Source of the DNA: Gracilibacillus lacisalsi DSM 19029
GTDB lineage: Bacteria > Bacillota > Bacilli > Bacillales > Amphibacillaceae
Length of the DNA: 64,000 nt
Assembly (NCBI RefSeq): GCF_000377765.1
Contig: NZ_KB898662.1
Coordinates: forward strand, 372,001 to 436,000
Direction of reading: 5' to 3'
Position 1 is the first letter of the stretch, and every line of letters begins with the position of its first letter. The notes under the pieces are model-generated. The model had not been told where the DNA came from and searched no databases. It was given only the letters and a program-made list of their open reading frames with translations. The position numbers and the translations under genes are program-made. Of the stretch, positions 3,213-28,540 are shown piece by piece.

Positions 3213-4007
3213 CTAATCTCTACTAACTAAAAACCACCCATTCAACAATTCTTCCCGATTATAATAAAACCGCTCATCATCTTCGTAGCGAGTAACCTTG
3301 CCACCTGCTGCTTCCACAATTGCTTGTCCTGCACCAGTATCCCATTCCATTGTTGGAGCATAACGAGGATAATAATCTGCTTTCCCTTCCGCTACTAAGC
3401 AGAACTTAAGTGAACTTCCTGATGAAACTACATTCACTTCACCGTCTAGCTTTTTAATAAATGCTTCTGTCTCTTCAGACATATGAGAACGACTAGCTAC
3501 TACATTTGTAATATTACTATCTTGGACTTCTGGTAATTTAACACTTTGACGGATCAAATCTTCTGAACTTGTAATAGTTACTTCTGATGCATCCTTTAAC
3601 TTATATGCTCCTTCACCATTCACACCAAAATAAAATGTATCCAATGCTGGTGCATAAATAACTCCCAATTTTGGGTATTTTCCATCAATTAAAGCGATAT
3701 TAACCGTGAATTCACCATTTTTCTTTATAAACTCTTTCGTTCCGTCTAGTGGATCTACTAACCAGAATTGTGCCCAGTCTTTACGCGCTTCATATGGAAT
3801 TTCTTTACCTTCTTCGCTTAATACCGGAATACTGGCATCGATTTTCTCCAAACCTTCTGCAATGGCATAATGTGCTCTCTTGTCTGCTAAGGTTAATGGT
3901 GAATCATCTTCTTTAAACTCAACATCAAAGTCTTGTTGATATACATCCATAATCTCTTTTCCTGCGTCTAAACAAACTTGAAACAAATCAACTATGTATT
4001 TGCTCAT
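3213..4007 (-). CDS. cysQ: 3'(2'),5'-bisphosphate nucleotidase CysQ
   Basis: A magnesium-dependent phosphatase of the inositol-monophosphatase fold that converts 3'-phosphoadenosine 5'-phosphate (PAP) to AMP, or PAPS to APS. Seen in the 264 residues: an early DSPLTLADKRAH segment, the metal site VDPLDGTKEF (residue about 82), and a C-terminal WDTGAGQAIVEAAGG block, all standard for CysQ. The start is ATG 4007, with GGGTGGG upstream. It is the last gene of the cysD-cysNC-permease set. PAP is the by-product of PAPS-dependent sulfotransfer, so CysQ fits recycling for the sulfotransferase at 9117. Confidence 0.9.
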   Translation of the reverse strand: MSKYIVDLFQVCLDAGKEIMDVYQQDFDVEFKEDDSPLTLADKRAHYAIAEGLEKIDASIPVLSEEGKEIPYEARKDWAQFWLVDPLDGTKEFIKKNGEFTVNIALIDGKYPKLGVIYAPALDTFYFGVNGEGAYKLKDASEVTITSSEDLIRQSVKLPEVQDSNITNVVASRSHMSEETEAFIKKLDGEVNVVSSGSSLKFCLVAEGKADYYPRYAPTMEWDTGAGQAIVEAAGGKVTRYEDDERFYYNREELLNGWFLVSRD

Positions 4008-4030
4008 TTTATTCCCACCCTTTCTTTTAA

Positions 4031-5809
4031 TTAAAACCATACCATGTTCACGATGGTTACAGTCACAAGCATAACAAGAATACTTAACGGAGTACCTACC
4101 TTCATATAGTCACTAAATGTATATCCACCGGGACCGTAGACAATGAGATTAGTTTGATAACCAATAGGTGTGATAAAGCTAGCTGAAGCGGCAATCGCAA
4201 TCGTAACCGCAAAACCCATGTAATCAACGCCTAATGAACTCGCCATCTCTAGTCCAATCGGAAGCATCAGCACTGCTGCTGCACTATTCGTAATAAGTTC
4301 CGTAAATATATTGGTTAATAGATAAATCGCAATTAACAAAGCAATAATGCCTAGCGGTTCACCGATGCCAAGGATTCCTTTGGCCATCCACGATGCAAGT
4401 CCCGTTTTCGTCATTGCTGTTCCAACTCCGAAAGCACTAGCTATTAATAAAAGCACATGAAACTGAATATTTTTCTTGGCCTCTTCAGGAGTTATAATTT
4501 TAGTTATAATAAAAATAAACACAGCTAATAGCATAGCTTTAAACATCGATAACAAACCAAATGTAACAGCTAGTATCATCGCAATTAAAACGACTAGAGA
4601 AAACCAGCCTTTACCTTTGTTCTCATTTAAGTTATTAGGTGTATCTAGTGTTGATACAACATAGAAGTCATTAGAGTTGTTATAGGTTTTGATAAAATCA
4701 GAACCTGCTAGTAAAAGTAAGACATCACCTGGTTTTGGCACAATATCACCAATTTTACTTTTAATTCGTTCATTGTTACGGTGTACAGCCAATACTCCTG
4801 CATCATATCTTGAACGAAATTGAGATTGCTTAAATGATTTGGATAATAAGGATGATTGGTGAGACACCACCGCTTCTACTAACTGGACTTCTCCATTTTT
4901 AAGATCATCTAAATCTAAATGTGTACCTGTTTCTAATCTTAGTCCTTTTATCTGCTGTAATTCTGCTATAGTAGAAATCAACCCTGTAAAGATTAACCTG
5001 TCTCCTGCACTCACCATAGTAGTAGATTTAACAGGAGAGATTCTTTCATTCTCCCGGATAATTTCTATTAAATACAAGCCTTTCAAATCACGTAAGCCAG
5101 CTTCCTGAACGGATTTGCCTAGGAAAGGGAATTCACTGGTTACGGACATTTCGGCCATATACTCACGCGTATCCTTCTTAACTTGTTCACTAAAGCCTTT
5201 ATTGTTTGGCAAAATTTTATATCCTATTGTGAAGAGGTAAATAAAACCTAAAATCAATACGGGAATACCGACAATCGCTAATTGAAAAAGGGTAAATCCT
5301 TCTAACCCATAATCAATCAACATACCATGGACAACTAGATTAGTAGATGTCCCCATCAAAGTCAGCGTTCCACCTAAAATGGTGACATATGATAAAGGAA
5401 TTAAGTACTTAGAAGGAGCAATCCCTCTTTCTTGACACCACTTCTTGATCATTGGTGTAAATGCAACCACAATCGGTGTATTATTTAAGAATGCAGATGA
5501 AACAGAAACAGGTAAATAAAAACGGATCATAGACCCTTTCTTTTGGCTGCTTTTATTTAACCAACTTGTCATCATACGTTCTAGGATTCCATGTTTTTGA
5601 ACAGCTCCTGCTACGATAAATAATAAAGCAATGGTTAGCATACCTTGATTAGAAAAACCTTTAAATGCCTCTTCAGGAGTTAATAACCCCGTTAAAACAA
5701 ATATAACTAACGCTGCAAATATAATCATGTCAGGTCTTGCCACTTCGAAAAGCAAGGCCAAAAACATGGCAATAATAATGATTAAAACAAAAGCCATTTC
5801 CAATGTCAT
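4031..5809 (-). CDS. SLC13/DASS-family anion permease with central RCK_C domains
   Basis: A membrane transporter of 592 residues, probably for sulfate or a related divalent anion. Each half has several transmembrane helices with the NTPIVVAFTPM and ITNSAAAVLMLPIG reentrant motifs of the SLC13 family. Between them, residues about 205-380 form two soluble RCK_C/TrkA_C-like domains, an arrangement common in bacterial sulfate permeases. The start is ATG 5809, preceded by a near-perfect ribosome site (AAGGAGGTGAT); a longer frame runs back into a hairpin. Being between cysNC and cysQ points to sulfate supply for PAPS. The substrate is inferred from context. Confidence 0.85.
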   Translation of the reverse strand: MTLEMAFVLIIIIAMFLALLFEVARPDMIIFAALVIFVLTGLLTPEEAFKGFSNQGMLTIALLFIVAGAVQKHGILERMMTSWLNKSSQKKGSMIRFYLPVSVSSAFLNNTPIVVAFTPMIKKWCQERGIAPSKYLIPLSYVTILGGTLTLMGTSTNLVVHGMLIDYGLEGFTLFQLAIVGIPVLILGFIYLFTIGYKILPNNKGFSEQVKKDTREYMAEMSVTSEFPFLGKSVQEAGLRDLKGLYLIEIIRENERISPVKSTTMVSAGDRLIFTGLISTIAELQQIKGLRLETGTHLDLDDLKNGEVQLVEAVVSHQSSLLSKSFKQSQFRSRYDAGVLAVHRNNERIKSKIGDIVPKPGDVLLLLAGSDFIKTYNNSNDFYVVSTLDTPNNLNENKGKGWFSLVVLIAMILAVTFGLLSMFKAMLLAVFIFIITKIITPEEAKKNIQFHVLLLIASAFGVGTAMTKTGLASWMAKGILGIGEPLGIIALLIAIYLLTNIFTELITNSAAAVLMLPIGLEMASSLGVDYMGFAVTIAIAASASFITPIGYQTNLIVYGPGGYTFSDYMKVGTPLSILVMLVTVTIVNMVWF

Positions 5810-5834
5810 AAGAGGGATCACCTCCTTTTCAGAG

Positions 5835-5870
5835 AAAAAGCTACTACCATGAAAGTTGATAGTAGCTTTT
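5835..5870 (-). terminator. Hairpin between cysNC and permease
   Basis: AAAAGCTACTA and TAGTAGCTTTT pair around a 13-base loop, followed by a T run on the minus strand. It starts 6 bases after the cysNC stop and precedes the permease ribosome site, so it should cut read-through and lower permease expression relative to cysDNC. Confidence 0.75.
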
Positions 5871-5875
5871 ATCAT

Positions 5876-7702
5876 TTAATCTATATGTTTCATAATTTCT
5901 TTTACTACATAATCGGTAGCTTCTTCTAAAGAATATTTACTTGTATCGATCTCAATTTCAGGGTTTTCTGGCTCTTCATAAGGACTAGAAATACCTGTAA
6001 AGTTAGGAATTTCGCCAGCACGTGCTTTCTTGTAAAGCCCTTTAACATCTCGTTCTTCACATACTTCAAGTGGTGTACTAACAAATATTTCAATGTAGGA
6101 ATCTCCGATAATTTCACGTGCATTTTGTCTATCACTCTCATATGGGGAAATAAATGATGTTAACGCAATAAGACCAGCATCATTCATCAATTTACCAACC
6201 TCTGCAATACGACGAATGTTTTCCACACGATCTTGTTCTTTAAAGCCTAAGTTTTTATTTAAACCGTGTCGAACGTTATCACCATCTAATAACATCGTAT
6301 GGTGCCCTGTTGCTACAAGGCGTTTTTCAACTTCGTTAGCAAGTGTAGACTTACCAGATCCGGAAAGACCTGTAAACCATAACGTTAATGGTTTTTGACC
6401 TTTTTGTTGTGCTCTAACTTCACGTGTTACATCTGTTTCCTGCCATACGACATTTGTTGATCGACGTAATTCATGTTTAATGACACCACAAGCAGACGTC
6501 ATATTTGTCACTCGATCAATTAGAATCAAACCACCAAGAGATTCATTGTTTTCGAATTTATCAAAAACCATATTCTCAGATAGTGAAATATCACATTCTA
6601 CTAATTCATTTTTGAAGATTTTATCAGCTGGAACCTCTTTACCCGTATTGATATCAATTTTATTTTTAATAGACATCACTGTACCTGGTAATAGTTTGGT
6701 TCCTACTTTTACTAAATAGTTACGTCCCTCTACTAATTCCGTATCATCCATCCATAAAATAGTAGCTGTAAACATATCGGTAACCTGAATATTTTCTGAT
6801 GTTGTTAAAACACACCCTCGTGAAACGTCTACTTCTCGGTCTAATTGTACCGTTACAGGTTGTCCTGCTCCAGCTTCAGATACTTCATTATCTGTTACGA
6901 GAATACTTTTAACATTAGCCTTTTCCTGACTAGGCAGTGTAATAAGCTCTTCACCGACTTTAATATGGCCAGCTTCAACTTGCCCTTGAAAACCACGGAA
7001 TGTATGATTTGGACGACTTACACGCTGAACAGGCATCACAAATTCCTCTTGATCTACATCTTCTTCTACTTCAATATCTTCTATATATGGTAACAATGCC
7101 TTACCGTCATACCAAAGTGTATTTTCCGATTTTTTGGTAATGTTATCCCCCTCTGTAGCAGAAACAGGAATAACTTGAACACTTTCAAGATTAAAACCGT
7201 ATGTCATTTGTAAGAAATCATTTTTTATTTCTTCAAAACGTTTTTGATCAAAGCCAATGAGGTCCATCTTGTTTACTGCAAGGACGACATGTTTAATCCC
7301 CATTAATGCACAAATACGGGCGTGACGTTTTGTTTGGGTGATAACACCTTTCGTTGCATCTACTAAAATAACTGCTAAGTCAGCAAAGGACGTACCAACA
7401 GCCATATTACGAGTATATTCTTCATGTCCCGGTGTATCTGCAACAATAAAGGAACGGTTATCGGTTGTGAAATAACGGTAGGCAACGTCTATCGTGATAC
7501 CTTGTTCACGCTCTGCCATTAAACCATCAAGTAGTAAAGAGTAGTCAATTTCACCACCGCGACTACCAACCTTTGAATCTAATTCCAAAGCTTTTTCTTG
7601 ATCCGCAAATAATAGTTTTGCATCATAAAGCATATGTCCAATTAATGTAGATTTTCCATCATCAACACTACCGCATGTAATAAATTTTAATAAACCCTTC
7701 AT
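5876..7702 (-). CDS. cysNC: Bifunctional ATP sulfurylase large subunit / APS kinase CysNC
   Basis: It makes PAPS in two steps. The N-terminal GTPase (residues 1 to about 430) drives sulfate adenylation with CysD, and the C-terminal kinase (about 435-608) phosphorylates APS. Visible motifs are P-loop [12 protein letters not shown] (10-21), DTPGHEEY and NKMDL in the GTPase, and [14 protein letters not shown] opening the kinase, with [10 protein letters not shown] after it. The start is ATG 7702, one base after the cysD stop. CysDN with a CysNC fusion is typical of Proteobacteria and of NodPQ-type sulfation systems; Bacilli usually use a Sat-type sulfurylase, so acquisition by transfer is plausible. 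Confidence 0.93.
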
Positions 7703-7703
7703 T

Positions 7704-8603
7704 CTAGAAATACCCCTCTCTCTTACGACGTTCCATGCTTCCAGCAGCTTCTTGGTCAATGACACGGCTTGTACGTTCAGATGAAACAGCTCCTAATGTC
7801 TCTTCAATGATTTCATCTAACGTTTCAGCCTCTGATTCAACACCGCCAGTAAGAGGGTAGCAACCTAATGTACGGAAACGAACTTTCTTATGCTTGATTT
7901 CTTCACCCGGTTCTAGTTTCAAACGGTCATCATCGACCATCACGATATTACCGTCACGTTCTACTACAGGGCGATCTTTAGCGAAATAAAGTGGAACAAT
8001 ATCGATGTTCTCCCGTTTTATGTATTGCCAGATATCCTTTTCTGTCCAGTTAGATAGTGGGAATACACGCATACTTTCTCCTTTGTTAATTCGGGTATTG
8101 TATAACTTCCACATTTCTGGTTTTTGATTTTTAGGATCCCAAGCATGATTTTTATTACGGAAAGAAAATACACGCTCTTTCGCACGTGATTTCTCCTCAT
8201 CACGACGGCCACCACCAAACGCAGCGGTAAATTCATATTTATCAAGAGCTTGTTTTAAGCTTTGGGTTTTCATAATATCTGTATAGGCAGAACCGTGATC
8301 AAACGGATTAATGCCTTGTTCTACTCCTTCTTGATTGATATGTTCAATCATTTCAATACCCAATTCTTTTGCTTTTTGATCACGGAAATCTATCATTTCT
8401 TTAAATTTCCATGTTGTATTCACATGTAAAAATGGAAATGGTGGTTTTTCCGGATAGAAAGCTTTCATTGCTAGATGTAGCATCACAGAACTGTCTTTAC
8501 CGATTGAATATAGCATTACTGGGTTTTCACATTCTGCGGCTACTTCTCGTATAATATATATTGCTTCTGCCTCGAGTTGGTCGAGGTGTGATAATTTTTT
8601 CAT
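7704..8603 (-). CDS. cysD: Sulfate adenylyltransferase small subunit CysD
   Basis: The 299-residue PP-loop subunit joins sulfate to ATP, giving APS, with CysN hydrolysing GTP. The pyrophosphate loop [14 protein letters not shown] is at residues 32-45. The [21 protein letters not shown] block and the C-terminal [25 protein letters not shown]-type tail are characteristic; length is standard. The ribosome site AAGGAGTATTACCT precedes ATG. It opens the set cysD, cysNC, permease, cysQ. No cysH, cysIJ or sirohaem genes lie nearby, which argues for PAPS use in sulfation rather than cysteine synthesis, at least locally. Confidence 0.95.
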
Positions 8604-9116
8604 AGGTAATACTCCTTTTAAATTTCACATTATATAAGGTGTGTTGTTCTTTTGTATATACTTTTTTGAGATTATTTCTGCACTATATACTTATCCTCTT
8701 ACTCTTTTTTCTGAATATTTTTTGTCAATCAGTACAGTTAAACTAGGTAAAATGAATAAAACAATAATAATTGCTGTCTTTATATAAAAAATATTAGTAG
8801 TTAACTTTTATTAATAAATCTTGATGATAATTTATAGTATAAGTGCCCTAAAAATAACCCTTCTATGTAAGCTAAAACACAAAATGTTTTGAAGAATAAC
8901 AAAGCAAATTAAACTCCTTCAAAAGTAGAACAGTAACATGTTAGATAATCTCTTATAAAGGAACTTAAAATATTCTTCATTTAGCTTATTTGAAAAAGTA
9001 CGCCCCTAATAAAAGAGACAGGAAACTTTGATAATCGATTGATAAAGGAAAAATCATCTGTTATAAATTAATTTGAACCGTAATATTTTTTATTATTTAA
9101 ATTGATAGAATTATTA
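8604..9116. other. AT-rich gap between EPS locus and cysD
   Basis: No gene is seen. On the minus strand a TATAAT (8629-8634) lies 25-30 bases before cysD with no clear -35, and a TTGACA (8723-8728) lacks a good -10. So cysD probably has its own promoter here, but its position is uncertain. I see no clear terminator after the sulfotransferase, so read-through from the EPS operon is possible. Confidence 0.4.
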
Positions 9117-9860
9117 TTATCTGTTGCTATAATGTAATATATCTTTATATACTTTCGATATATCAATATTCAAGAATTGTTTACAAAGCAAAAGAATTCT
9201 ATTATATAAAGTTGATTTATTCTTTTTACTCCTATAATAAGAATTATCTCGACAATCTATTAATTTCATATTTACAAACTCTGATAATTTATCAAATTCT
9301 CCTCTTGATGACATAAGGTTAGTATAATCAATTATTAGTATTTCATTATTATTATTTTTAATTATCTCTAAAACATGTTTATTATATATATACCATGCTC
9401 GCAAGGCTAAAATTGCTATAGCAAGTTGTGCTAGTTTATTCCTTTTCTTGCCTTTTTTCATATAATGTAGCCAAACTTCGTGTGGATCTCTTACAACCAC
9501 AATTAACTTATGATCACTAATAATTTGTTTCCAAAAAGTATATGTTAAACAAGTTCGAGGATCTTTAAAACCCCAATCCGTATATTTAATATCCAAATTT
9601 TGTACTGCTGAATATGCCTTCTCATATATTTTTCCATCTATTTTATTCGATTTAACCTTTTTTGTTACTAATAAGCTACTTTTTCTCCCACACCTAAGTA
9701 TCTCTTTATTAATTACATTAAATTCTTCTCTCTCGAATTGATTTCCCGAATCGTAATCTATACTTTCATCAAATACGCCCATATTTAAATTAGATTTATG
9801 AAGAATCCTCGAAACTAAAGTTGTTCCAGATTTGTGCATCCCTAAAATAACATACCTCAT
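9117..9860 (-). CDS. PAPS-dependent sulfotransferase family protein
   Basis: A 247-residue protein of the sulfotransferase fold. The N-terminal LGMHKSGTTLVSRIL (6-20) is the 5'-phosphosulfate loop. VVVRDPHEVWLHYMKKG (about 123-139) is the 3'-phosphate site with its conserved Arg. The expected product is a sulfate ester on a sugar, using PAPS. It is the last gene of the EPS transcript, with AGAGGAG before ATG, and is followed after 500 bp by cysDNC. It has no signal or membrane segment, so it would act on a cytoplasmic lipid-linked repeat unit. The acceptor sugar is unknown. Similar folds also occur in kinases, so activity is inferred. Confidence 0.82.
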   Translation of the reverse strand: MRYVILGMHKSGTTLVSRILHKSNLNMGVFDESIDYDSGNQFEREEFNVINKEILRCGRKSSLLVTKKVKSNKIDGKIYEKAYSAVQNLDIKYTDWGFKDPRTCLTYTFWKQIISDHKLIVVVRDPHEVWLHYMKKGKKRNKLAQLAIAILALRAWYIYNKHVLEIIKNNNNEILIIDYTNLMSSRGEFDKLSEFVNMKLIDCRDNSYYRSKKNKSTLYNRILLLCKQFLNIDISKVYKDILHYSNR

Positions 9861-9926: not shown

Positions 9927-11324
9927 TTATAAACTATCTTTTATCATTTTTTTTATATTTTTTAACATTTTTTTAAGAAAAAAGGGCGTTGTATCTTTAT
10001 TGTAATCTTTAATGAACGGATCCATATGTTTTATAAGTGTATTAAAGTCACCAGAATCCTCAGCGATTTTATAGGCTTTGAAACTTTCCTGAACAAGTTT
10101 TTGTCTCTTTATATATATTTTTTTTCTTTTCGAGCTTAATTTATCATTAGGTTCAACTCTTTTAGTAGGTCTCCATTCTTTATTCATATCTTTCAAAAAC
10201 AAACGATAAGCTAATCCTTCTCTTCTATGACGAAATCCGCCAGCTTGTGATTTATATACTTTATCGGTACTAATTTCGTTCAAGAATAATTGATCCTTGT
10301 TATCATTAATAATATTTAAAATATCAGGATTTCTAACTACTATCACATTTGTCCCTTGACTATCCCTCAGATATTCTGGTAACCATGCATCTCCAATAGT
10401 TATATCTGCTGTTTCTGCTAACACATCATCACAAAAATCACATGCATTATACTTAAAAAAACCATGTCCCCAGTTTGTTGTATAAAGTTCCTTCGTAGGT
10501 GAGCTTTTAGTAACTATTTCACCATTTATATTGCCTTGGACCTCAACCCCATATTGATTTGCTGATCTACCAGCTAATTTCTTTCTGAAATCAATATTTA
10601 TTAGATTCTCAGGTTTTATTCCTAATTGCCAGCCAATTGATTTGGCAAACATGTCGCTTTTCAAATGGCCACATACCAAACCTATAAAATATTTTATACT
10701 GTTTTTAATTTTTACATCTTGATCTGCTAATAATCTTACAGATTTTATATAACATGGTATCCCAACCAAGGCGAATCTCTTATCATGTTTTCTAACAAAA
10801 TTAACTACCTCAGAAAGCTCAATAGGGTAATATTTTGACTTTGCTCCGTTCGATAATTCACCTTCATTATATGAAATACTATATTCAAATAATTTTTTTT
10901 CTTCTTTAGATGGTTTTATGTGAATAATACCGTCTACAAGATCATTTTTTAATAATTGTGCAGCAACCCAACTCCCCATTCCTCCGGAGCTTCCTTTACT
11001 TCTATACTCTCCCTCTTTCACATATCCTGCAAAGTTCTTAATAAAATATCCTGTATATTCATTAAAACTTGCCTCAGGGTTTCGACTAAAAACTTCGGAT
11101 CCAATTTCTGTTTCATTTTTACTTTCTTTAGAAAAAGGACATACTGATAATACTTCGATTTCTTTTTCCGCTTCTATATTATTATTTATTACTGGTTTAT
11201 ACTTCCCATTATCGTCCATCTCCATTGACAGTGGTGAGTTATATACACTAGCACATATTCCACAGCCAATGCAATAATCATTAGAAACTACGGTGTCTAG
11301 CAATTCCTTTACATTACTGTTCAT
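9927..11324 (-). CDS. FrhB-like Fe-S protein of polysaccharide loci (F420 hydrogenase beta-subunit family)
   Basis: A 465-residue member of the coenzyme F420 hydrogenase/dehydrogenase beta-subunit family often found in EPS clusters next to pyruvyltransferases. The N-terminus carries a ferredoxin-like cysteine set (CIGCGICASV, then a Cys in SVCPFSKE). A further set appears at CGHLKSD and YNACDFCDDVLAETADITIGDAW. It probably transfers electrons or reduces a glycan or its precursor. Its exact reaction in EPS loci is not established. The ATG overlaps the flippase stop (ATGA). The C-terminal 70 residues are basic and low-complexity. Confidence 0.8.
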   Translation of the reverse strand: MNSNVKELLDTVVSNDYCIGCGICASVYNSPLSMEMDDNGKYKPVINNNIEAEKEIEVLSVCPFSKESKNETEIGSEVFSRNPEASFNEYTGYFIKNFAGYVKEGEYRSKGSSGGMGSWVAAQLLKNDLVDGIIHIKPSKEEKKLFEYSISYNEGELSNGAKSKYYPIELSEVVNFVRKHDKRFALVGIPCYIKSVRLLADQDVKIKNSIKYFIGLVCGHLKSDMFAKSIGWQLGIKPENLINIDFRKKLAGRSANQYGVEVQGNINGEIVTKSSPTKELYTTNWGHGFFKYNACDFCDDVLAETADITIGDAWLPEYLRDSQGTNVIVVRNPDILNIINDNKDQLFLNEISTDKVYKSQAGGFRHRREGLAYRLFLKDMNKEWRPTKRVEPNDKLSSKRKKIYIKRQKLVQESFKAYKIAEDSGDFNTLIKHMDPFIKDYNKDTTPFFLKKMLKNIKKMIKDSL

Positions 11325-12853
11325 TTTCTATATTCTCCTTTTTTAGGTATTTGTCTTAAATTATTTATAATTGAGATAGTTAATTTTTTTTCATAGTCGT
11401 TCATTCCTAATGTCCATAAACATAATACAAATAAAAAACAGTATATAATTATCTCTAAAATTAAAAATATAATACTATCATTTGGAGAAAGATAACCGAT
11501 TACTCTACCAATTAGCAACGAAAAAATTACAGGTATCGTTAATTTAATTATATTCCTCCAAAAAAGAGGAATATCAAGTCCTATTTTTTTCTGATAATAA
11601 ATATTCATAGCTATAATATTACCTAAGACTAATGATAAAGCAGTTGCGATAGCAACACCAACCCCAGAATATTTTTGTGCCAACGGAATAGAAATAACTA
11701 CATTGAAAGTAGCTATAAGAATTAATACAATTGACCTAAATGCTTGCAAGTTCTTAGCGTATAATATTGAAATACCTATATTTTGAATAAGTGGCACACA
11801 TAAAGGAATCATTATTAATATTACTATGTAGTAAGCTTCAGTATAGTCTGATCCAGCCCATACATTAATAAATGAATAACCGTATAATGTAAACCCACTT
11901 AATATAAAAGCTAAAATAATAAATTGTAATCTTCCATATTTAATCATTATCTCAGTAAGCTTATCACTACTTGCATTCTTAGCAACTAACATTGAAACCC
12001 TTGGTAAGAATAGTCCACTAATAGAAGTTGAAAACTGCTTGTATAAAATAATGAACTGCATAGCTATAGCATATATGGCCACTGGCACTGTGCCTGTTAC
12101 CGCCCCCAAAATAAATTGATCTGTATTCCAGTAAATTTGATCGACAATAACCCCTAAAAAAACAAGGGAAGAATATCCTATTATTTCTCTAAGAAATGTT
12201 AAATCCACCTTACCAAATTTCAATCTTATTTTTATATATCTTATACAATAGAATAAATTAAAGAGCAGACACGATATATTAACAATTGTAGTAACTACTA
12301 CCATAGTTACTGATCCATAGCCTAGAAATAACAATGGTAAGGTTATTATCGGTGATAATATGGTTCTAATTATCGCTACCAATTTTGATATAACGAATTT
12401 TTCATAAGCTTTAATGATAGAACTAAAAACAGTTAATGGAAATGATAATGAAAAGTTTATAATAAGTATGATTACCATAATTTTTGCTTTTATCAATTCG
12501 CTATCTGTTAAACTATTACCAAAAAAAACTTCAAGCTTATTCAAGAATATCATACCAATTAATATGGTTACTACACCAATAATAGAGTACATCAACATAA
12601 AGAGTCCATTGAGATGGGCTTCTTTTTGTTTATTTCCCTCTACTCTATTCCTTGCGTTATATCTAACAATAGCATTTCCTAATCCCATATCCATAATACT
12701 AAAATACGAAGCTATTGAACCAATTAATGCATATAGACCATACTCTGATTGCCCTAATAGTCTAATTACAATTGGTGTGTATAACAAGCTTATTAAGAGA
12801 GTAATGAATAGTGAAAAATAAGATAATAATGCTCCAGCTTTCATTTGACTCAT
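11321..12853 (-). CDS. Wzx-type polysaccharide flippase
   Basis: A 510-residue MOP-superfamily transporter with about 14 hydrophobic helices. It flips undecaprenyl-linked repeat units to the outer face of the membrane. The N-terminal LYTPIVIRLLGQSEYGLYALIGSI matches the start of Wzx/RfbX proteins. With the EpsG-like polymerase and the EpsL-like initiator in the same operon it defines a Wzx/Wzy pathway. Base composition is strongly AT-rich, as in its neighbours. Confidence 0.88.
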   Translation of the reverse strand: MSQMKAGALLSYFSLFITLLISLLYTPIVIRLLGQSEYGLYALIGSIASYFSIMDMGLGNAIVRYNARNRVEGNKQKEAHLNGLFMLMYSIIGVVTILIGMIFLNKLEVFFGNSLTDSELIKAKIMVIILIINFSLSFPLTVFSSIIKAYEKFVISKLVAIIRTILSPIITLPLLFLGYGSVTMVVVTTIVNISCLLFNLFYCIRYIKIRLKFGKVDLTFLREIIGYSSLVFLGVIVDQIYWNTDQFILGAVTGTVPVAIYAIAMQFIILYKQFSTSISGLFLPRVSMLVAKNASSDKLTEIMIKYGRLQFIILAFILSGFTLYGYSFINVWAGSDYTEAYYIVILIMIPLCVPLIQNIGISILYAKNLQAFRSIVLILIATFNVVISIPLAQKYSGVGVAIATALSLVLGNIIAMNIYYQKKIGLDIPLFWRNIIKLTIPVIFSLLIGRVIGYLSPNDSIIFLILEIIIYCFLFVLCLWTLGMNDYEKKLTISIINNLRQIPKKGEYRK

Positions 12854-12926
12854 ATTTGTAACATCTTCTTTCTTCGATTCGATAACATAAAACTGTCATG
12901 AACATTGGAAATGATTTATTTTGCCT

Positions 12927-14057
12927 TTATTTTAATACATTGTTTAGGTATTGCTCAGACAATAATTTTTGCTTTTTTATTATATTGTGAATCTCATTAT
13001 AATCGGGTGTTTTCATTAAACAATTCTTAGTATTCAAGTCATCACTACTACTAATAATAAAATCCTCAATATTATATCTTGTGGCAAGGTCCTTAAATCT
13101 AGTAGAACGCATCTTTTCTGCATAGTAGGCTATAAAACATTTTTTGAATTTTAATGAAAATAGAGTTCCGTGATATGAATCTGTATAAATAAATGTTGCA
13201 TTTTTAAATAAGCTTATCCATTCTTCAGGACCTAGATCATAAAAAACCTTATCAGAATAATCAGCAATGTTGAATTTCATAGTGGGTATTACTATGGAAT
13301 ATACAGGAATATTTCCGTATACCTCTTTAATTTTGTTTATTACATATTTGTTAGACCCATTAATCTCTTTACCTAATGCATAAACTAATATATACTTTTG
13401 CCCTTCAGGTATAAAGTTGTTTTTTTCAAACTGATTAAAATTTAGTAACAAAGTAGGGTCTACTACAATTGGTGGTGAGAAGTTAAGTAAACTCTTTACA
13501 AAGTTACTTGAATGTTCATTTCTAACCGAAATTGCTGTAAAATCATTTAACTCTTGTTCCAATTTTGATTTATGTGTTGATTTAACATCTGATATTGTGG
13601 AATCTGCAGCGTAACTTACTTTTTTTCCATTAAAGTTATCAAAATTTAAAAAATACTCCTTTTTATCTCTTTGTCCAGGTCTCCAAACCTGATCGCTACC
13701 TACAATTATAATCTCATAATTATTAACTATTTTAAGCAAGCTACTTTCATCTACTTTTTCACTTAACTTCATACTTTGACTTCTAAATGCATCAAATTTC
13801 TTTATGATTTTCTTATTGTATTTTACTTTAATATAAATTCTTTTTATCAATGTTTGTATATTTAATATTTGATCTATAATATTCTTCTTTAACCCTATAG
13901 ATCTTAATATTTTATGGTTTTTGTAATTAGAAGGTATAAAATTTATTACTTCAACTTGGTAACCTTTGTCTTCGAGATATTTTTGAAGTGCATAACTTTG
14001 TAATACACCTCCAAAGTTATTAGAGTAATGATACGTTAGTATTCCAATTTTCTTCAT
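12927..14057 (-). CDS. Polysaccharide pyruvyl transferase family protein
   Basis: A 376-residue enzyme of the CsaB/WcaK/EpsO family, which adds a ketal-linked pyruvate to sugars from phosphoenolpyruvate. Seen are the opening IGILTYHYSNNFGGVLQSYALQ, VGSDQVWRPGQ near residue 118, and the SYHGTLFSLKFKK segment (about 292-304) typical of the C-terminal half. It lies two genes from the FrhB-like protein, a pairing common in EPS loci. Pyruvate groups would add negative charge to the polymer. The start ATG follows AAAGGGGAATCTTA. Confidence 0.88.
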   Translation of the reverse strand: MKKIGILTYHYSNNFGGVLQSYALQKYLEDKGYQVEVINFIPSNYKNHKILRSIGLKKNIIDQILNIQTLIKRIYIKVKYNKKIIKKFDAFRSQSMKLSEKVDESSLLKIVNNYEIIIVGSDQVWRPGQRDKKEYFLNFDNFNGKKVSYAADSTISDVKSTHKSKLEQELNDFTAISVRNEHSSNFVKSLLNFSPPIVVDPTLLLNFNQFEKNNFIPEGQKYILVYALGKEINGSNKYVINKIKEVYGNIPVYSIVIPTMKFNIADYSDKVFYDLGPEEWISLFKNATFIYTDSYHGTLFSLKFKKCFIAYYAEKMRSTRFKDLATRYNIEDFIISSSDDLNTKNCLMKTPDYNEIHNIIKKQKLLSEQYLNNVLK

Positions 14058-14076: not shown

Positions 14077-15153
14077 TTAGTATTCCCAAAAGAAATAGTA
14101 TGGAACAATTCCATTTCCATCACTCTCAAGATTATTTATATAATAATAGGATACTGCCAAAATGATTATCATAGTAATTAATAGTTTTATTACCTTAGTT
14201 TCCTTAATAGTTAATTTTACAGGTAGTTTATCTAGATTATTTATAATATGTGGTATATACAAAATAATAAAAATGAAGAAAAACATATTCAATCTAGTAA
14301 ATAAATAGGAAAAAGAACTAAGTGATTGAATAAAAAACGCTATAACCATTATATTTGCTAAAATCGTATTTTCCCTGCTATTGTATTTTATTGGACTATA
14401 TACATATATCCCCAGTATTATTACTATCAATATTAATATAGCTAAGCCACCTATATTATCTGAACTAGTGTATCTATCTAAACTGTTTTCTTCATAAAAT
14501 AATAAAGTTAGCAACTCTCCAATTGGTGCTCTTAATAAGAATAACAGGATATAACTTCCTATTAAGTATAAAATATATTGATAATTCCACCTTATCTGAG
14601 CAATATAATATATAGGTAAAAATATTATAGCTGCATAATGAAAAGTTGCGGCAATTAATATTATTATAAAGAACTTCATAAACTTTTTATCTAATATATA
14701 TTTGAATGAGAATAAAACTAAAATAATAGCAATAGTTTGACGAATACCTGTAAAAGAAAAATTAAAAAAACCTAACCCTATAAACAATAAATAACTAATA
14801 AAATAATTCTTTGAATACTTATAAATAACTAATCCAAGTAACGAAAATACAAATACCGCTACACTTAACAGCCAAAAATTAAAATTGTCCGAAAAAAGCA
14901 AAAAAAGCTTTTGGGCTACCTCATAACCAATCTCACTTATACCACTAATAGTATCACTAGAAAGACTTTGAAACTTTCTCTCATATCTTATAGTATCAAT
15001 ACCAACAGTAAAATGTCTCAAACCATTTACCAATGCAAACTGTATTGTAATAATTACTATAAAAAGCTTTGTAGTAATTCTCGATTTAGCAAAAGTTAAT
15101 AATGTCAACGAATAGAAAATAAATAAATAAAAGTTTAACTCTATAACGCTCAT
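14077..15153 (-). CDS. EpsG-like polysaccharide polymerase (Wzy)
   Basis: A membrane protein of about 358 residues with at least nine hydrophobic helices and little soluble sequence. The early RHFTVGIDTIRYERKF loop (residues about 46-61) is the EpsG-family signature (G-x-D-x-x-x-Y). It should link flipped repeat units outside the membrane. I place the start at ATG 15153, since TAGGTG lies at a good distance from it; a GTG three codons earlier is possible. It sits between pyruvyltransferase and glycosyltransferase genes. Confidence 0.85.
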   Translation of the reverse strand: MSVIELNFYLFIFYSLTLLTFAKSRITTKLFIVIITIQFALVNGLRHFTVGIDTIRYERKFQSLSSDTISGISEIGYEVAQKLFLLFSDNFNFWLLSVAVFVFSLLGLVIYKYSKNYFISYLLFIGLGFFNFSFTGIRQTIAIILVLFSFKYILDKKFMKFFIIILIAATFHYAAIIFLPIYYIAQIRWNYQYILYLIGSYILLFLLRAPIGELLTLLFYEENSLDRYTSSDNIGGLAILILIVIILGIYVYSPIKYNSRENTILANIMVIAFFIQSLSSFSYLFTRLNMFFFIFIILYIPHIINNLDKLPVKLTIKETKVIKLLITMIIILAVSYYYINNLESDGNGIVPYYFFWEY

Positions 15154-15213
15154 ACAAAACACCTACATATGTTCATGATCAATAAACTCCTTAATATTCA
15201 TTAATATAAAGAA

Positions 15214-16353
15214 TTACTCATTATTAACGATAATATTTCGTGAATAAATTTCATAAAACAACTCCGAAGTCTTATCTATATCATAATCTGGTTTCTTTAA
15301 AGCCTGTTGTTTTCCCTTATAATACTTAATATGATTTAAAATTTCGCTCTCCCATACTTTTTCATTAATAGGCAGATAAGTAACATTTCCCAAGTTTGTA
15401 TTAGTGGGAACACGGTTTGAAGCAATACATTTAAGTCCCATAGCTTGTGCTTCCACTAGCACTATACCAAACCCTTCCCATTTCGAAGGTAGTAAAAATA
15501 AATCCATGCCAGCTAATATTTTAGGTATATCATCACGAGCTCCCAAGAATGATACTCGATTATTTATATTCTTCGATATCACATATTGCTGTATTTCTTC
15601 TTTAAGTTTTCCCTCTCCCACAAACGATAAATGAACATTGCTAAATTTTTTTGAGATATTTGTGAAAACATCTACTATGAATTTATGATTTTTAATTTTG
15701 ACAAAGCGCCCTACCAATACTAAATGAATAAGATCGTGATTGAGCTTTAATTCTTTTAAAACATCATTCCTATTATATAATTCTAAATCAAATCGTTTAT
15801 AGTCAATGCCATTAGGAATAATAGTTGTTCTTTTATCATTTATTCCTTTCCTTCCAAATAAATAGCTAGCAGCTTCATATGATGGTGCAATCATATCTGT
15901 AGAATACTTTAAGATAAGATTTCTCATTAAAATTTCATACATTTTTCTCAGAATACCGATTTCCAGATTGGATTTATCGGTATGTGAGTGAGAAATTCTA
16001 ATTGGAATGTTAGCTAACTTAGCTAACAACATATAAAAACCTGAAAAAAACAAACTGTGAGAGTGTATAGTATCAAAAGGACCTTTAGCTTTTATAAGCT
16101 TCAACAGCTTATAAAAGCTAATTATTTTATCTAAATTATTTTTTTCACGATGGAAATGAATCTGTATTCCATTATCCTCTAATTTTTTCTTATATGTTTG
16201 TTTTCCATTTAACACAGTAGGACTAAAAAAGTGAACCTCAACATTCTTTTTATTCATTTTTATTGCATTATCAACCATCAATGCCTCTATTCCACCTATA
16301 GTAATTCCAGATATGTTAAGCACTTTAACTTTTCTATAAGTATTTTCACTCAA
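15214..16353 (-). CDS. Glycosyltransferase family 4 (EpsF-like)
   Basis: A GT-B glycosyltransferase of about 379 residues. The N-terminal domain opens KVLNISGITIGGIEALMVD, and the acceptor-side loop HSHSLFFSG follows. The C-terminal nucleotide site has LVGRFVKIKNHK and LPSKWEGFGIVLVEAQAMG, the EX7E motif of GT4. The frame can be read from 16371, but the best start is TTG 16353 behind AGGGGAAAAG; it overlaps the stop of the upstream glycosyltransferase (TTGAGTGA). Donor and acceptor sugars are not known. Confidence 0.85.
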   Translation of the reverse strand: MSENTYRKVKVLNISGITIGGIEALMVDNAIKMNKKNVEVHFFSPTVLNGKQTYKKKLEDNGIQIHFHREKNNLDKIISFYKLLKLIKAKGPFDTIHSHSLFFSGFYMLLAKLANIPIRISHSHTDKSNLEIGILRKMYEILMRNLILKYSTDMIAPSYEAASYLFGRKGINDKRTTIIPNGIDYKRFDLELYNRNDVLKELKLNHDLIHLVLVGRFVKIKNHKFIVDVFTNISKKFSNVHLSFVGEGKLKEEIQQYVISKNINNRVSFLGARDDIPKILAGMDLFLLPSKWEGFGIVLVEAQAMGLKCIASNRVPTNTNLGNVTYLPINEKVWESEILNHIKYYKGKQQALKKPDYDIDKTSELFYEIYSRNIIVNNE

Positions 16354-17554
16354 TATCTTTTCCCCTAACAATTTTATTTTTTAGTGGAAATCCAAATTCT
16401 GTATTTAGTATCCTTCTTAATTCTTTATAATATCTCTCTGGACTGTATTTATCTTTAACTAATTCTAAACTTCTTTCACCCATAATTAGATGTTTTTTTC
16501 TCTCTTTAATAATTTTTGTGATTTTATTCTCTAAATCATCGACATCATCACTTTTAAATACATAACCATTGTAATTTTCTTCAATATAGTCTTGTGCACC
16601 AGCAGTATCACTACATATAACAGGTAATTTATGGGCCATTGCCTCCAAAACTGATACTCCTAGTTCTTCATTTATTGATGGAAGTATAAATAGATCATGA
16701 TTGAGATATTCCTGTTGTACTTTATTAAACTCCAAATTGGTCTTTATATTCACCAAACCTTCTAAATGATTTTCACTAATGAAATCTACTACTTTTTTAT
16801 ACTCTATCTCATGTATTTCTTTCGTTAATTCACCTATAATTGTCAAACTTATATCGTATTTTTTTTTCAGCCTTTTAACAACTTCCAACAATAATAAATG
16901 TCTTTTCCTTGGTACAAACTTACCTATAGAAATTATATTAATTCGATCCTTGCTAAAATATTTTTTTTCTTTTAATTTTTTTTCATTCACTTTAATAATA
17001 AAAGGCAAGTAATAAGTTCTAGAAGGACATTCCGGATTCATTATTCCTTTACCGTTTATAGGTGTTATCATTACCTTTGGCATTATTTTCTTTATTAAAA
17101 TTTGATATATTAATAATTTAAGTTTTTTTACAATTTTCATGCTTTTTTTCGACTTATGAACATGTTTAGGAATTTGCCTATATAATATTACATTAATACC
17201 TAATTTTCTACATAAAATAAAAGTTAATAATCCAAAAAAAAATGTATCCCTAACTATAACATAATCTGGTGAAAAATTTTTAATATAACTTAAATAATCT
17301 TTAATAGGTGGAATTCCGAACTGCCTTTCGAATCTAAAAGATTCGCGTGAGGTTTTATTAATAAAATTATATAACTTTTTAAAAAATAAAAAAAATTTAC
17401 TATATCCAAATATTTTCGGGGTTATTAAACTATGATCTTCACTACCACCAACATATTGAGAAACATAGATTACTTCATCTCCATTTTTTAGTAATGTATC
17501 CACTACATAATACTGATTTGTATGAAACCTTGGCGCAACAAACATTACTTTCAT
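16346..17554 (-). CDS. Glycosyltransferase family 4
   Basis: A GT-B enzyme of about 402 residues. MKVMFVAPRFHTNQYYVV opens the N-terminal Rossmann domain. The C-terminal half has IISIGKFVPRKRH and LPSINEELGVSVLEAMAHKLPV, the GT4 donor-binding EX7E region. The frame extends 29 codons further upstream into the preceding gene; ATG 17554 is chosen because GGAGGTT precedes it. It is one of four GT4 genes in the operon, so the repeat unit probably has at least five sugars including the priming one. AT content is very high. Confidence 0.85.
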   Translation of the reverse strand: MKVMFVAPRFHTNQYYVVDTLLKNGDEVIYVSQYVGGSEDHSLITPKIFGYSKFFLFFKKLYNFINKTSRESFRFERQFGIPPIKDYLSYIKNFSPDYVIVRDTFFFGLLTFILCRKLGINVILYRQIPKHVHKSKKSMKIVKKLKLLIYQILIKKIMPKVMITPINGKGIMNPECPSRTYYLPFIIKVNEKKLKEKKYFSKDRINIISIGKFVPRKRHLLLLEVVKRLKKKYDISLTIIGELTKEIHEIEYKKVVDFISENHLEGLVNIKTNLEFNKVQQEYLNHDLFILPSINEELGVSVLEAMAHKLPVICSDTAGAQDYIEENYNGYVFKSDDVDDLENKITKIIKERKKHLIMGERSLELVKDKYSPERYYKELRRILNTEFGFPLKNKIVRGKDIE

Positions 17555-17576
17555 GACTAACCTCCACGTAAAATTC

Positions 17577-18686
17577 CTAAAAGTTTTTAAGAGCTTCAGT
17601 ATAGAATTTCTCATACCACTTAACTGTCGAATTGACATCAAATCCAGATTCTGTGAATTCCTTTATATGATTTTTTCTAATATGTTTAAAGTAATTCTCC
17701 ATTAAACTTTCAGCCCAAAATTCAGGTGATCTTTCCAAAGGTATAAATGTTACATTTTTCGTTATTCTCACTTCTTTTGTTATCTGATCTGATATTATGC
17801 ATGGAATTCCAGCAGCTTGTGCTTCCAACACTACACCTGGTAACCCCTCATACAAAGAAGGAAAAAGAAGTACGTCAGCTGCTTGTAAAAAATCTGACAC
17901 ATCTGACCTTATACCTTTAAAAAATACCGCATTTTCTAAGTTCATAATCTTAGTCTGTTTTTCAATTTCTTGTTTTAAAGGTCCATCTCCTATTAATATT
18001 AACTTTGAATTTTTTTGTTTTTCGTTAACTTTCTTGAAAATCTCAAGTAATAATCTATGATTTTTTTGAGGATGAAACCTTCCGACATGGACTATTACTA
18101 ATTCATCCTTAAATCCTAATTCTGACCTTTTTGCAATTCGTGTATCTTGGTTAAATAAAAACCTACTTGTATTAATGGCATTTGGAATTACTTTAACAGT
18201 ATTATTTTTAACTGCCTTTTTTCCAAACTCACTTATTCCAGCTTTTTTTGATACAGCAAATAAGTTTGTTGCATTAAATCGTGATAATTTACATAAATAT
18301 TTCTTTATAACATTTTCTTTATTAGAATTTCTTGAATGTGCTATTCTAATTGGTACACTCTTTTTTCTAGCTTCTCTCAAATATACAAACGCTGTACTAG
18401 TTTGGTGACCATGTACTATTCTATACTCAGTATGTTTAGAAAAAAAATCTCGCCAAGCTTTCTTATATGATAGATAATTTTTTCCGGTGAAACGTGGTAA
18501 ACTGTAGATTTTACCCCCCATTGATCTTATTTCACTAGAAAAATAGCATTCATCTGTAGTATGAATCGCAAAATCAAATTGGACTTTAGTTCGGTCTATT
18601 GACCTATAAATATCCATCGTCCTACTTTCTGCACCTCCAGCATCCAATCTTCCAAAAATGTGTAAAACCCTTATCGGTTCTTTCAT
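17577..18686 (-). CDS. Glycosyltransferase family 4 (EpsF-like)
   Basis: A 369-residue GT-B enzyme. VLHIFGRLDAGGAESRTMDIY at residues 7-27 is the typical EpsF/CapH start. IVHVGRFHPQKNH and FPSLYEGLPGVVLEAQAAGIP provide the donor site with the EX7E motif. The ATG overlaps the stop of the upstream gene (ATGA), showing translational coupling. It probably adds one sugar of the repeat unit on the cytoplasmic face. Confidence 0.87.
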   Translation of the reverse strand: MKEPIRVLHIFGRLDAGGAESRTMDIYRSIDRTKVQFDFAIHTTDECYFSSEIRSMGGKIYSLPRFTGKNYLSYKKAWRDFFSKHTEYRIVHGHQTSTAFVYLREARKKSVPIRIAHSRNSNKENVIKKYLCKLSRFNATNLFAVSKKAGISEFGKKAVKNNTVKVIPNAINTSRFLFNQDTRIAKRSELGFKDELVIVHVGRFHPQKNHRLLLEIFKKVNEKQKNSKLILIGDGPLKQEIEKQTKIMNLENAVFFKGIRSDVSDFLQAADVLLFPSLYEGLPGVVLEAQAAGIPCIISDQITKEVRITKNVTFIPLERSPEFWAESLMENYFKHIRKNHIKEFTESGFDVNSTVKWYEKFYTEALKNF

Positions 18687-19789
18687 GCGTTTCCCTCAAT
18701 CTTTGAAATTCTTTTCAGGTATTCTCTAACAACTATTTCTCTATTAAACTCTCTTTCCACTTTATTCCTTCCCTCTATACCCATTTTTTCCATTGTTTTA
18801 TAGTCCATTTTTAAAAACTCTTCAATTTTATTTATGAGTTCCTTAGTATTTTTCGGTTCAATGATATAGCCATTTACATTATCTTCGACTATTTCTCTAC
18901 ATCCACTTCTATTTGTAGTAATAAGTGGCCTTCCCGAGGCAGCGCTCTCTAATAATACATTTGACATCCCTTCAGGATAATATGTTGGGTGTACTGTACA
19001 GTGTACTTTTTCTAATATTGTTCTTATATCTCTAACCATACCATGATATTTTATTATTCCTTCACTCTGAAGTTGATTCAACAAAGATTCATAATTCTGT
19101 TCGCAAAAACCACAAACATGAAAAATAGTGTTTGGGTATTTCTTTTTAATATACTTTGCTGTATCTAAATATTGATCGACTCCCTTTTCTTTCATTATCC
19201 TTGATATAAAAACAAACTCTATATTTTCACTGTCGGGAAACTCTAATCTAGAAAACTGTTGAAGATTCACTCCAGAACCCGGTAAAATTTCATGTTTATT
19301 AATTGCAATATTGTTTTGTTCAAAGAATAACTGATTTTCTTTGTTTTGAAAAAAAACTGTCTTAACTTTGGAAAAAGCAAACTTGTATAATAATACAGAT
19401 ATTTTTTGCATTAAGCCTCCATTTTCTACTGCAGTACCAAGACCGGTGATGTTGGAAATATACGGAATGTTTAGCGCCTTTGCTGCTATCCCACCATAAA
19501 TATTCGGTTTAATCGTAAAAGTCAAAACAACATTTGGCTTAATTTCCCTCATTATTCTCTTGTAATAGCGAAGTAACTTTAATTCTTGAAAAGCATTTTT
19601 TCCATGCCTTTGCATAGAGGCTTCAATGTATTTACAACCTAGTCTCTTCAAATCTTCTATTCTTTCGCCATAAGGAGATGAAACATATACTTGATAACCT
19701 TCTTCAAGCAATTTTTCTACAATCTCACGTCTAAAGTTGTATATTACAACATCGTGATTAACTAAAAAAAGTACTTTCTTCTGTGCCAC
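18683..19789 (-). CDS. Glycosyltransferase family 4 (EpsD/CapM-like)
   Basis: A 368-residue GT-B enzyme. KVLFLVNHDVVIYNFRREI at the N-terminus and NITGLGTAV (about 115) are typical of the CapM/EpsD/PglA group, which often adds an amino sugar to the lipid-linked primer. The donor site includes FISRIMKEKGVDQY and HPTYYPEGMSNVLLESAASGRP. The start is GTG 19789, with AGGGATTAATT upstream. It follows the epimerase and primer genes closely, in keeping with an early step. Confidence 0.87.
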   Translation of the reverse strand: MAQKKVLFLVNHDVVIYNFRREIVEKLLEEGYQVYVSSPYGERIEDLKRLGCKYIEASMQRHGKNAFQELKLLRYYKRIMREIKPNVVLTFTIKPNIYGGIAAKALNIPYISNITGLGTAVENGGLMQKISVLLYKFAFSKVKTVFFQNKENQLFFEQNNIAINKHEILPGSGVNLQQFSRLEFPDSENIEFVFISRIMKEKGVDQYLDTAKYIKKKYPNTIFHVCGFCEQNYESLLNQLQSEGIIKYHGMVRDIRTILEKVHCTVHPTYYPEGMSNVLLESAASGRPLITTNRSGCREIVEDNVNGYIIEPKNTKELINKIEEFLKMDYKTMEKMGIEGRNKVEREFNREIVVREYLKRISKIEGNA

Positions 19790-19791
19790 AA

Positions 19792-20658
19792 TTAATCCCT
19801 GCTTTCAGTAGATGCAATGGAAGATCGTAAATCATGTACTATATAATCTTCCTTGTAATTACTTAGATCTCTTTCATAATATAAATCCCCGAATACTTTA
19901 TTAATTAACACTAACCTGTTCCTCAATAAATTTATTATTGGATTAAAAATTTTTGTTGTTTTTATAGTCTTATTATGTGCTTTTGCAATTTCTTCTACCA
20001 TATTACTTGTTTGGACATAATCTTTATTTTGGGGAAAAAACAATCCACATTCTTTATTTTGAATCATAAGCTTTATAAACTCTGACAAGTTATCTATATG
20101 CAACATGCTTCTACGGTTATAGAAATTAGGAAAAACAGGAGACATAGTAGCAAATTTAGCTAATCTAGGGTAGTTTCCTTTAGAATTCTTCCCGTATATC
20201 ATCGGCGGACGAATTATGACAATTTTAAAACTTTTACTTTCTAAGTCTTTTAATCCATTTTCTGCTTGCAATTTGCTGTCTCCATAATAGTTACTTGGTT
20301 TTGGAATAGTTCTTTCTCTTATTACTCCAGTATTATTAATGCTATCACCATATACAATAATACTACTTAAGAAGATAAACTGTTTTACACCTTCCAAATT
20401 CGCCTTAGTAGCTATTTCCATAGTCAAATCACGATTAATTCGGTAATATTTTTCTCGCAGACTAGGATCAGTTGAAACATGCGCTATCCCAGCGACATGC
20501 AAGACAACATCATAAATGGAAAAGTCTACACTTTTCCATTCATCCGTACGTAAGCTTATTTTATCAATTTGAAACTCTTCAGGATAATTGTCTGTTACCC
20601 ATTTTTCGAAAGAGTTACCTACATAACTATTCTTACCAGTAATTAACACTCGCTTCAT
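19792..20658 (-). CDS. NAD-dependent sugar epimerase/dehydratase
   Basis: A short-chain dehydrogenase-like enzyme of 288 residues acting on a nucleotide sugar. The N-terminal ITGKNSYVG is an altered Rossmann GxxGxxG loop, VLHVAGIAH follows, and the catalytic YxxxK is YYGDSKLQ near residue 149, with a Ser in FLSSIIVYG. It resembles proteins that accompany EpsL-like primers and reduce a 4-keto sugar made by the EpsC-like dehydratase. Its product, perhaps a deoxy amino sugar such as QuiNAc or FucNAc, is inference. Its ATG overlaps the upstream stop. Confidence 0.8.
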   Translation of the reverse strand: MKRVLITGKNSYVGNSFEKWVTDNYPEEFQIDKISLRTDEWKSVDFSIYDVVLHVAGIAHVSTDPSLREKYYRINRDLTMEIATKANLEGVKQFIFLSSIIVYGDSINNTGVIRERTIPKPSNYYGDSKLQAENGLKDLESKSFKIVIIRPPMIYGKNSKGNYPRLAKFATMSPVFPNFYNRRSMLHIDNLSEFIKLMIQNKECGLFFPQNKDYVQTSNMVEEIAKAHNKTIKTTKIFNPIINLLRNRLVLINKVFGDLYYERDLSNYKEDYIVHDLRSSIASTESRD

Positions 20659-23131: not shown

Positions 23132-23158
23132 TTGGGCCATCCCTTCCATCGTTAAAAA

Positions 23159-24040: not shown

Positions 24041-24127
24041 AATAGATAACAATCCTCCAAAATATAATGATAACATTCACTTAAAATACACTTTTTAAAG
24101 TATACTTTAAGCTTTAGTACTTTACAA

Positions 24128-24895: not shown

Positions 24896-25053
24896 AGCAA
24901 TTCATCGTCCTTTCTGATCATAAATATTTTATTTTAACGTCATAATATCATACTAAAGTATAACAGGAAACAAGCCAATTGAAAATAGCATTTAACAGGC
25001 GATTATTGTCGAATATACTTTAAATATTGTAAACTTCGCCTAATTTCTCCATA

Positions 25054-28514: not shown

Positions 28515-28540
28515 TAAAATACTTACGATGATTTATTGGA

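Follow-up and report, generated by a model that had tools for sequence, protein, structure and literature searches.

We analyzed a 64,000-nucleotide stretch of the genome of Gracilibacillus lacisalsi DSM 19029 (contig NZ_KB898662.1, positions 372,001 to 436,000; hereafter the window, in whose own numbering its features are given), in which a putative sulfotransferase (ST) gene at the end of an exopolysaccharide (EPS) locus is followed by a four-gene cassette predicted to supply 3'-phosphoadenosine 5'-phosphosulfate (PAPS). The EPS locus spans about 28.6 to 9.1 kb on the minus strand, and the tightly spaced cassette lies beyond its ST end in the order cysD, cysNC, an SLC13-type permease gene and cysQ, each of the five genes being one open frame on the same strand. 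The ST gene (9117..9860) matches PF13469 (38.5 bits versus a cut-off of 27) and PF00685 (25.7 versus 22), with no NCBIfam match. The sulfate adenylyltransferase small subunit gene cysD (7704..8603) matches TIGR02039 with 498.9 bits (cut-off 396.6), and cysNC (5876..7702), encoding the large subunit fused to an adenosine 5'-phosphosulfate (APS) kinase, matches NF004035 (868 versus 715) and PF01583; its true start is probably the ATG at 7702 rather than the GTG at 7765. The permease (4031..5875), which carries TrkA_C domains (PF02080), matches PF03600 and PF00939 above cut-off and the NCBIfam DASS model TIGR00785 below it (123.6 versus 198.6), and probably takes up sulfate. Finally, cysQ (3213..4040), for a 3'-phosphoadenosine 5'-phosphate (PAP) phosphatase, matches TIGR01331 with 287.9 bits (cut-off 228.8). 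These matches confirm the identities assigned to the five genes in a preliminary description of the window.

The ST gene is the only match in the genome to PF13469 and also the only one to PF00685, and it adjoins cysD while lying within the polysaccharide locus, after the FrhB-like, Wzx, pyruvyl transferase and EpsG genes. Its 5' phosphosulfate-binding loop, GMHKSGTT, is canonical. A search of the fetched loci with the protein gave just two matching genes at an E-value of 1e-3, both about 31% identical to it: one from the CysD-positive G415 (L207), the other from G044 (L046 and L067), where CysD is missing. A phmmer search against the PDB gave no match at an E-value of 0.1, and the AlphaFold model, built with six distant sequences, is too poor to judge the fold (mean predicted local distance difference test score 48.7). 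Between the ST gene and cysD lies a gap of 513 bp (8604..9116) with a promoter-like site at 8658-8629, just before cysD; it has no blastn match at an E-value of 1e-3 to the other fetched loci. Promoter-like sites occur at chance level over positions 2300-10500 (38 versus a mean of 36.9 in shuffled DNA), and terminator-like sites are slightly above chance (6 versus a mean of 3.5, standard deviation 2.0).

The EPS locus, all on the minus strand, begins with a cyclic diguanylate (c-di-GMP)-I riboswitch aptamer (RF01051; 28545..28631; 86 bits versus a gathering threshold of 35), followed by a NarL/LuxR-type regulator gene (27820..28449; PF00196 above cut-off), whose receiver-domain match is weak and below cut-off, as are all its NarL-like NCBIfam matches. 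Then come two genes for a Wzz-type co-polymerase and a kinase-like ATPase (26189..27638; PF02706/PF13807 and PF13614), two CpsB/CapC-type phosphatases (24128..25824; PF19567), and a galU-like nucleotidyl transferase with a CapD-like nucleotide-sugar dehydratase (21305..24076; PF00483, PF02719). The variable glycan part (14077..21281) encodes a priming sugar transferase, an epimerase, four GT4-type glycosyltransferases and an EpsG-type protein (PF02397, PF01370, PF00534, PF14897). It is followed by genes for a polysaccharide pyruvyl transferase family protein, a Wzx-type flippase and an FrhB/FdhB-like protein (9927..14057; PF04230, PF01943, PF04432/PF04422), the pyruvyl transferase family protein (12927-14057) and the F420-type FrhB/FdhB protein (9927-11324) flanking Wzx.

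A second sulfate-activation pathway and the riboswitches

The genome assembly (4.41 Mb, 99.99% complete) contains one Sat (PF01747), and its PF01507 matches are CysH on another contig (C4), CysD in the window and a weak third match on C22. On C4, cysH is followed in a row by a flavodoxin/FAD/NAD reductase gene of the cysJ type, a sulfite-reductase-type gene of the cysI type, sat and the APS kinase gene cysC (PF01583), and an S-adenosylmethionine (SAM) riboswitch (89.8 bits) lies about 50 bp before cysH. Since sat and cysC sit on C4, the genome does not depend on CysDNC alone for sulfate activation. The preliminary description, which called for a search for sat, cysC, cysH and cysIJ, had said that CysDNC as the sole activating enzyme beside a complete cysH/cysIJ pathway would refute its reading, and this is not the case here; with all of these genes together behind the SAM riboswitch, CysDNC is therefore, on paper, surplus to cysteine synthesis. 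Nor does cysH with cysI or cysJ stand beside cysDNC, as the CysH gene of the genome is on C4, and the earlier observation that no sulfite or sulfide genes are near the cassette holds.

As for the EPS locus, a terminator-like hairpin (28486..28515, minus strand; an 11-bp stem and a T run) between the aptamer and the first gene is a possible expression platform. A comparable hairpin between aptamer and regulator gene is present in eight of the nine leaders examined, that of G034 having none of the kind sought and that of G026 lying outside the sample. In five of these eight leaders (those of G000, the genome of the window, and of G029, G030, G033 and G035), a short alternative CCTAA/TTAGG pairing overlaps the 3' edge of the aptamer according to our rule. 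Judged from these sequences, the pairing hints at an OFF switch, and we make no claim of activation by c-di-GMP. In six of the nine CysD-positive Gracilibacillus genomes, cysD has a c-di-GMP-I riboswitch 19-25 kb upstream on its own strand, and at least one such riboswitch occurs somewhere in all 22 genomes searched. No SAM riboswitch scored above threshold in the 17 EPS-type cysD stretches scanned, nor was one found at four other cassettes scanned (G025, G034, G101 and G463).

Distribution of the cassette and of sulfotransferases

We searched 159 genomes of the family, of which 14 have a CysD above the curated cut-off (G045, with a weak match below it, was counted as negative). PF13469 matches occur in 34 of these genomes at an E-value of 0.001 (33 above cut-off) and PF00685 matches in 32. 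A PF13469 ST is present in 13 of the 14 genomes with CysD versus 21 of the 145 without (Fisher p = 2.8e-9, relatedness ignored); within Gracilibacillus the figures are 9/9 versus 0/8 (p = 4.1e-5, relatedness likewise ignored). An ST shares the cysD contig, at a distance of up to about 10.5 kb, in 11 of the 14 genomes; cysD and the STs of G025 and G034 sit on separate contigs. In a sample of 397 genomes of the order, 12 have CysD, three of them shared with the family set, and PF13469 matches were found in seven of these 12, always on the same contig, versus 46 of the 385 others (p = 2.4e-4). Of the remaining five, G212 has a PF03567 ST near cysD and G225 an NKWYS-type gene, both types having been searched for inside the fetched loci; the G225 gene is followed directly by genes for a MurJ-like flippase, CysQ, CysD and CysNC (L202:5053-11009). 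Since the NKWYS protein of G225 has a weak, below-cut-off match to Sulfotransfer_1 (E = 0.014), sulfotransferases may be among the members of PF10364.

All four cassette genes are present in 13 of the 14 family cassettes, that of G011 lacking the SLC13 gene; in G025, cysNC appears as two overlapping open reading frames (ORFs). Because the STs differ strongly between loci and the cassette is conserved, a conserved PAPS module appears to serve changing STs.

Relatives without the cassette are also informative. Seven of the eight CysD-negative Gracilibacillus genomes carry the EPS head gene ywqC, the eighth genome being 73% complete, and no ST was detected in these seven EPS loci by profiles including PF03567 and by NKWYS queries, the EPS loci of G022 and G026 being cut by contig ends. 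All nine CysD-positive Gracilibacillus genomes have an ST in the EPS locus, a count that is partly circular because most of these STs helped to build the profiles. In G023, the sister of G032 on the EPS-head tree, the same EPS head genes are followed by glycan genes and then by sugar-nucleotide genes, with neither ST nor cassette. On this EPS-head protein tree of 16 genomes, which was built from genes of the same locus that may recombine, the CysD state changes six times, at least four of the changes being forced by starred branches; the ST state equals the CysD state in all 16 rows, and all four independent pairs on starred branches agree.

To place the cassette more widely, we ranked a CysD scan by similarity and kept the best 80 loci, nearly all of which belong to Bacillota, with a few from Fibrobacter and unassigned bins. 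ST-like proteins were flagged within 10 kb in four of the 80, of which three were counted (L115, L181 and L189); the match at L119 was discounted as an antisense ORF over cysD. This 10-kb count misses STs that are farther away, for example that of L114 (Gracilibacillus dipsosauri DD1). A tree of CysD and CysNC with 40 rows (23 from the order of the window and 17 of the best 80 loci, thus not representative of all bacteria) groups the window with other genomes of its order, with a weak base (82/61). Outside the order of the window, cysDNC occurs commonly in Paenibacillus and Clostridia. The preliminary description had regarded CysDNC as more typical of Proteobacteria; a proteobacterial origin is not borne out and was rejected, as the nearest relatives among the matches listed are other Bacillota.

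Several cassettes stand in different surroundings. In Salimicrobium album (L126/L203) and in L205, cysH, further genes, cysJ, cysI, cysD, cysNC and the SLC13 gene are in a row without cysQ, and CysDNC appears to replace Sat/CysC in assimilation there. The cassette of Oceanobacillus limi (G101; L094, the same as L122) is located among genes for NeuB-type, cytidylyltransferase, DegT-type aminotransferase, formyltransferase, Maf-type and flagellin proteins, and might be associated with a sulfated flagellar glycan or an unrecognized ST family. Upstream of the detached cassette of G025, and on its strand, lies a gene with a PilZ domain (L083:10977-11345), a domain known to bind c-di-GMP.

Some further features of the window and its surroundings were recorded. 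A small helix-turn-helix (HTH)-type gene followed by a ComK-family gene (PF06338, 126.4 bits) occupies positions 1628-2382; relatives of these stand beside an EPS or cassette stretch in L096, L231, L233, L235 and partly L224, and, judged by eye, also occur in L086, L087 and L089, so that the two genes may together regulate the locus. A sulfatase gene (PF00884, 114.5 bits; L003:111-1904, corresponding to C1:360111-361904) is located on the opposite strand, about 13 kb past cysQ; its sequence SCMPAR agrees with the C-x-P-x-R motif of sulfatases. The enzyme could desulfate the polymer; we rejected it as a member of the module, its sole relative among the scanned stretches being in a Paenibacillus locus (L121). 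Two minus-strand matches to the BsrG RNA family (RF01412; 38575-38856 and 46734-47006, with 59.6 and 66.4 bits versus a gathering threshold of 55) are possibly type I toxin-antitoxin loci.

Interpretation of the locus and alternative roles

We consider it likely, with a probability of roughly three in four, that the locus is a glycan-sulfation module, in which the cassette supplies PAPS for a sulfated EPS. The gene families, the redundancy of the two sulfate-activating systems, the co-occurrence with STs and the riboswitches are observed, and sulfate on the polymer is predicted. The SLC13-type permease would import sulfate, CysD and CysN would convert it to APS, the fused kinase would make PAPS, the ST would use PAPS to place a sulfuryl group on a sugar of the still intracellular EPS repeat unit, ahead of export by Wzx, and CysQ would clear the by-product PAP. 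The EPS locus and the cassette would be transcribed together, the cassette forming the tail end as a conserved plug-in, next to glycosyltransferases and STs that vary among species; it would work beside a separate cysteine pathway behind the SAM riboswitch, with the EPS locus behind the c-di-GMP-I riboswitch. The preliminary inference of a PAPS unit for EPS sulfation is thus strengthened by the separate Sat/CysC pathway and the ST co-occurrence, but a universal link to STs is not upheld.

A number of observations weigh against this interpretation. The cassette is the next set of genes after the ST on the same strand, but it is not directly downstream as previously stated, and the 513-bp gap makes a shared transcript uncertain. 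Likewise, of the two PAPS-binding motifs attributed to the ST, the 5' loop is intact but the 3' phosphate-binding motif, with the consensus R-[DN]-P-x(5)-S, reads RDPHEVWLH, with His at the expected Ser, so this copy of the ST may be altered. Among the 41 other STs examined, nine lack a pattern match and L025 matched apparently at another place only; Ser is found in all 31 with a pattern-found 3' motif, many of these being near-copies of one PF00685-type protein. Thirteen of the 21 CysD-negative family genomes with a PF13469 match carry a conserved PF00685-type protein, and since STs occur in these 21 genomes, they can evidently live on Sat/CysC without the cassette. In G074, one of the 11 linked cases, the ST is also of the conserved PF00685 type and lies on the other strand, and the cassette of G101 has no PF13469 or PF00685 match. 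The sign test on the four independent pairs alone gives p = 0.125. Furthermore, the lack of a SAM riboswitch is by itself no mark of a sulfation role, because the detached cassettes of G025 and G034 lack one as well.

The strongest alternative, though unlikely, is that CysDNC, the SLC13-type permease and CysQ form a backup sulfate-assimilation unit that lies beside the EPS locus by chance. Two further cases detract from the sulfation reading in this direction. First, in G374 and G467, cysH, further genes, cysJ, cysI, cysD, cysNC and the SLC13 gene form an assimilation operon without cysQ, preceded by a SAM riboswitch in G374 and by none above threshold in G467. Second, a search for Sat drew a blank in G025 (83% complete) and G034 (98%), two genomes that have CysH and a cassette off the EPS locus, so that the cassette may serve assimilation there. 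However, Sat is kept in 12 of the 14 family CysD genomes, the cassette is absent from all eight Gracilibacillus genomes without PF13469 or PF00685 STs, and cysQ, which was not found in the two assimilatory stretches, is present in all 14 family cassettes. The proposal that the block always accompanies an ST therefore holds for most of the family (13/14 genomes, 11/14 within about 10.5 kb) but not for the assimilatory G374 and G467, for G101, or for G463, in which no ST was found within the 20-kb cysD stretch. Somewhat less probable still is a module sulfating a target other than EPS, such as a flagellar, teichoic or lipid-linked glycan, to which the NeuB-type, Maf-type and flagellin genes around the Oceanobacillus limi cassette would point, but the ST lies within the EPS locus itself in the nine CysD-positive Gracilibacillus genomes. 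That PAPS acts mainly as a signal raising matrix production rather than as a sulfate donor is very improbable, since this would leave the tie to STs unexplained, even though Vibrio vulnificus requires both cysD and cysC for rugosity and for the induction of brp expression by calcium, with c-di-GMP raising cysDNC and lowering cysHIJ (PMC6113621).

An extension of the EPS-sulfation reading, which we regard as tentative and on balance doubtful, is that these halophilic Bacillaceae run two PAPS factories in parallel under separate control. A SAM riboswitch would govern Sat/CysC, which serves cysteine synthesis, and a c-di-GMP riboswitch would govern CysDNC, which serves a sulfated matrix, with different STs swapped into the conserved cassette like serotype genes.

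Related systems and significance

In rhizobia, a second ATP-sulfurylase/APS-kinase set, NodPQ, serves the sulfotransferase NodH, which acts on Nod factors; we know of no cysQ or SLC13 partner in that system. A closer likeness is offered by the gammaproteobacterium Cobetia marina. In strain KMM 1449, a bifunctional cysN/cysC, cysD, cysQ and a sulfate permease gene lie with ST genes within the locus of a sulfated capsule whose structure is given (PMC11766843). The Cobetia capsule is of the ABC-transporter type, whereas the window has a Gram-positive EPS locus of the Wzx/EpsG type, a c-di-GMP riboswitch and a second, Sat/CysC pathway. Since the locus of this proven capsule has the same gene set, we view ours as a Gram-positive variant of it; by this analogy it may work in the same way, with polymer sulfate as the prediction. 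In Vibrio vulnificus, c-di-GMP similarly favors PAPS synthesis over reduction during matrix production, but there a single cysDNC operon is shared, BrpT is the regulator and PAPS is proposed as a signal (PMC6113621). The synechan (xss) locus of Synechocystis is also a sulfated EPS locus, with two sulfotransferases, but belongs to a cyanobacterium, and the term PAPS is absent from the main text of that paper (PMC8205485). The wps-1 locus of Actinoplanes missouriensis resembles ours as a Gram-positive EPS locus with two predicted STs and with a sulfate adenylyltransferase/APS-kinase-family gene nearby, which is required for normal sporangia; its activating enzyme is a different one, and its sulfation is likewise predicted (PMC13390465).

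Bacterial sulfated polysaccharides have been called cyanobacterial or scarcely known elsewhere (PMC13390465, PMC8205485), and sulfate in the halophile Virgibacillus dokdonensis was deduced solely by elemental analysis together with an infrared band (PMC9570845). Among the matches listed, our full-text literature searches found no paper on an ST-PAPS locus of a Bacillaceae EPS, which is no proof that none exists. The locus described here is a possible genetic basis of sulfated EPS in a Gram-positive halophile, and its cassette a compact PAPS supply that includes PAP removal. Near relatives that naturally lack the whole module, such as G023 compared with G032, allow a direct test of what matrix sulfation does. 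If the arrangement of two PAPS factories is real, it would let these halophilic Bacillaceae sulfate their matrix whatever their sulfur-amino-acid status.

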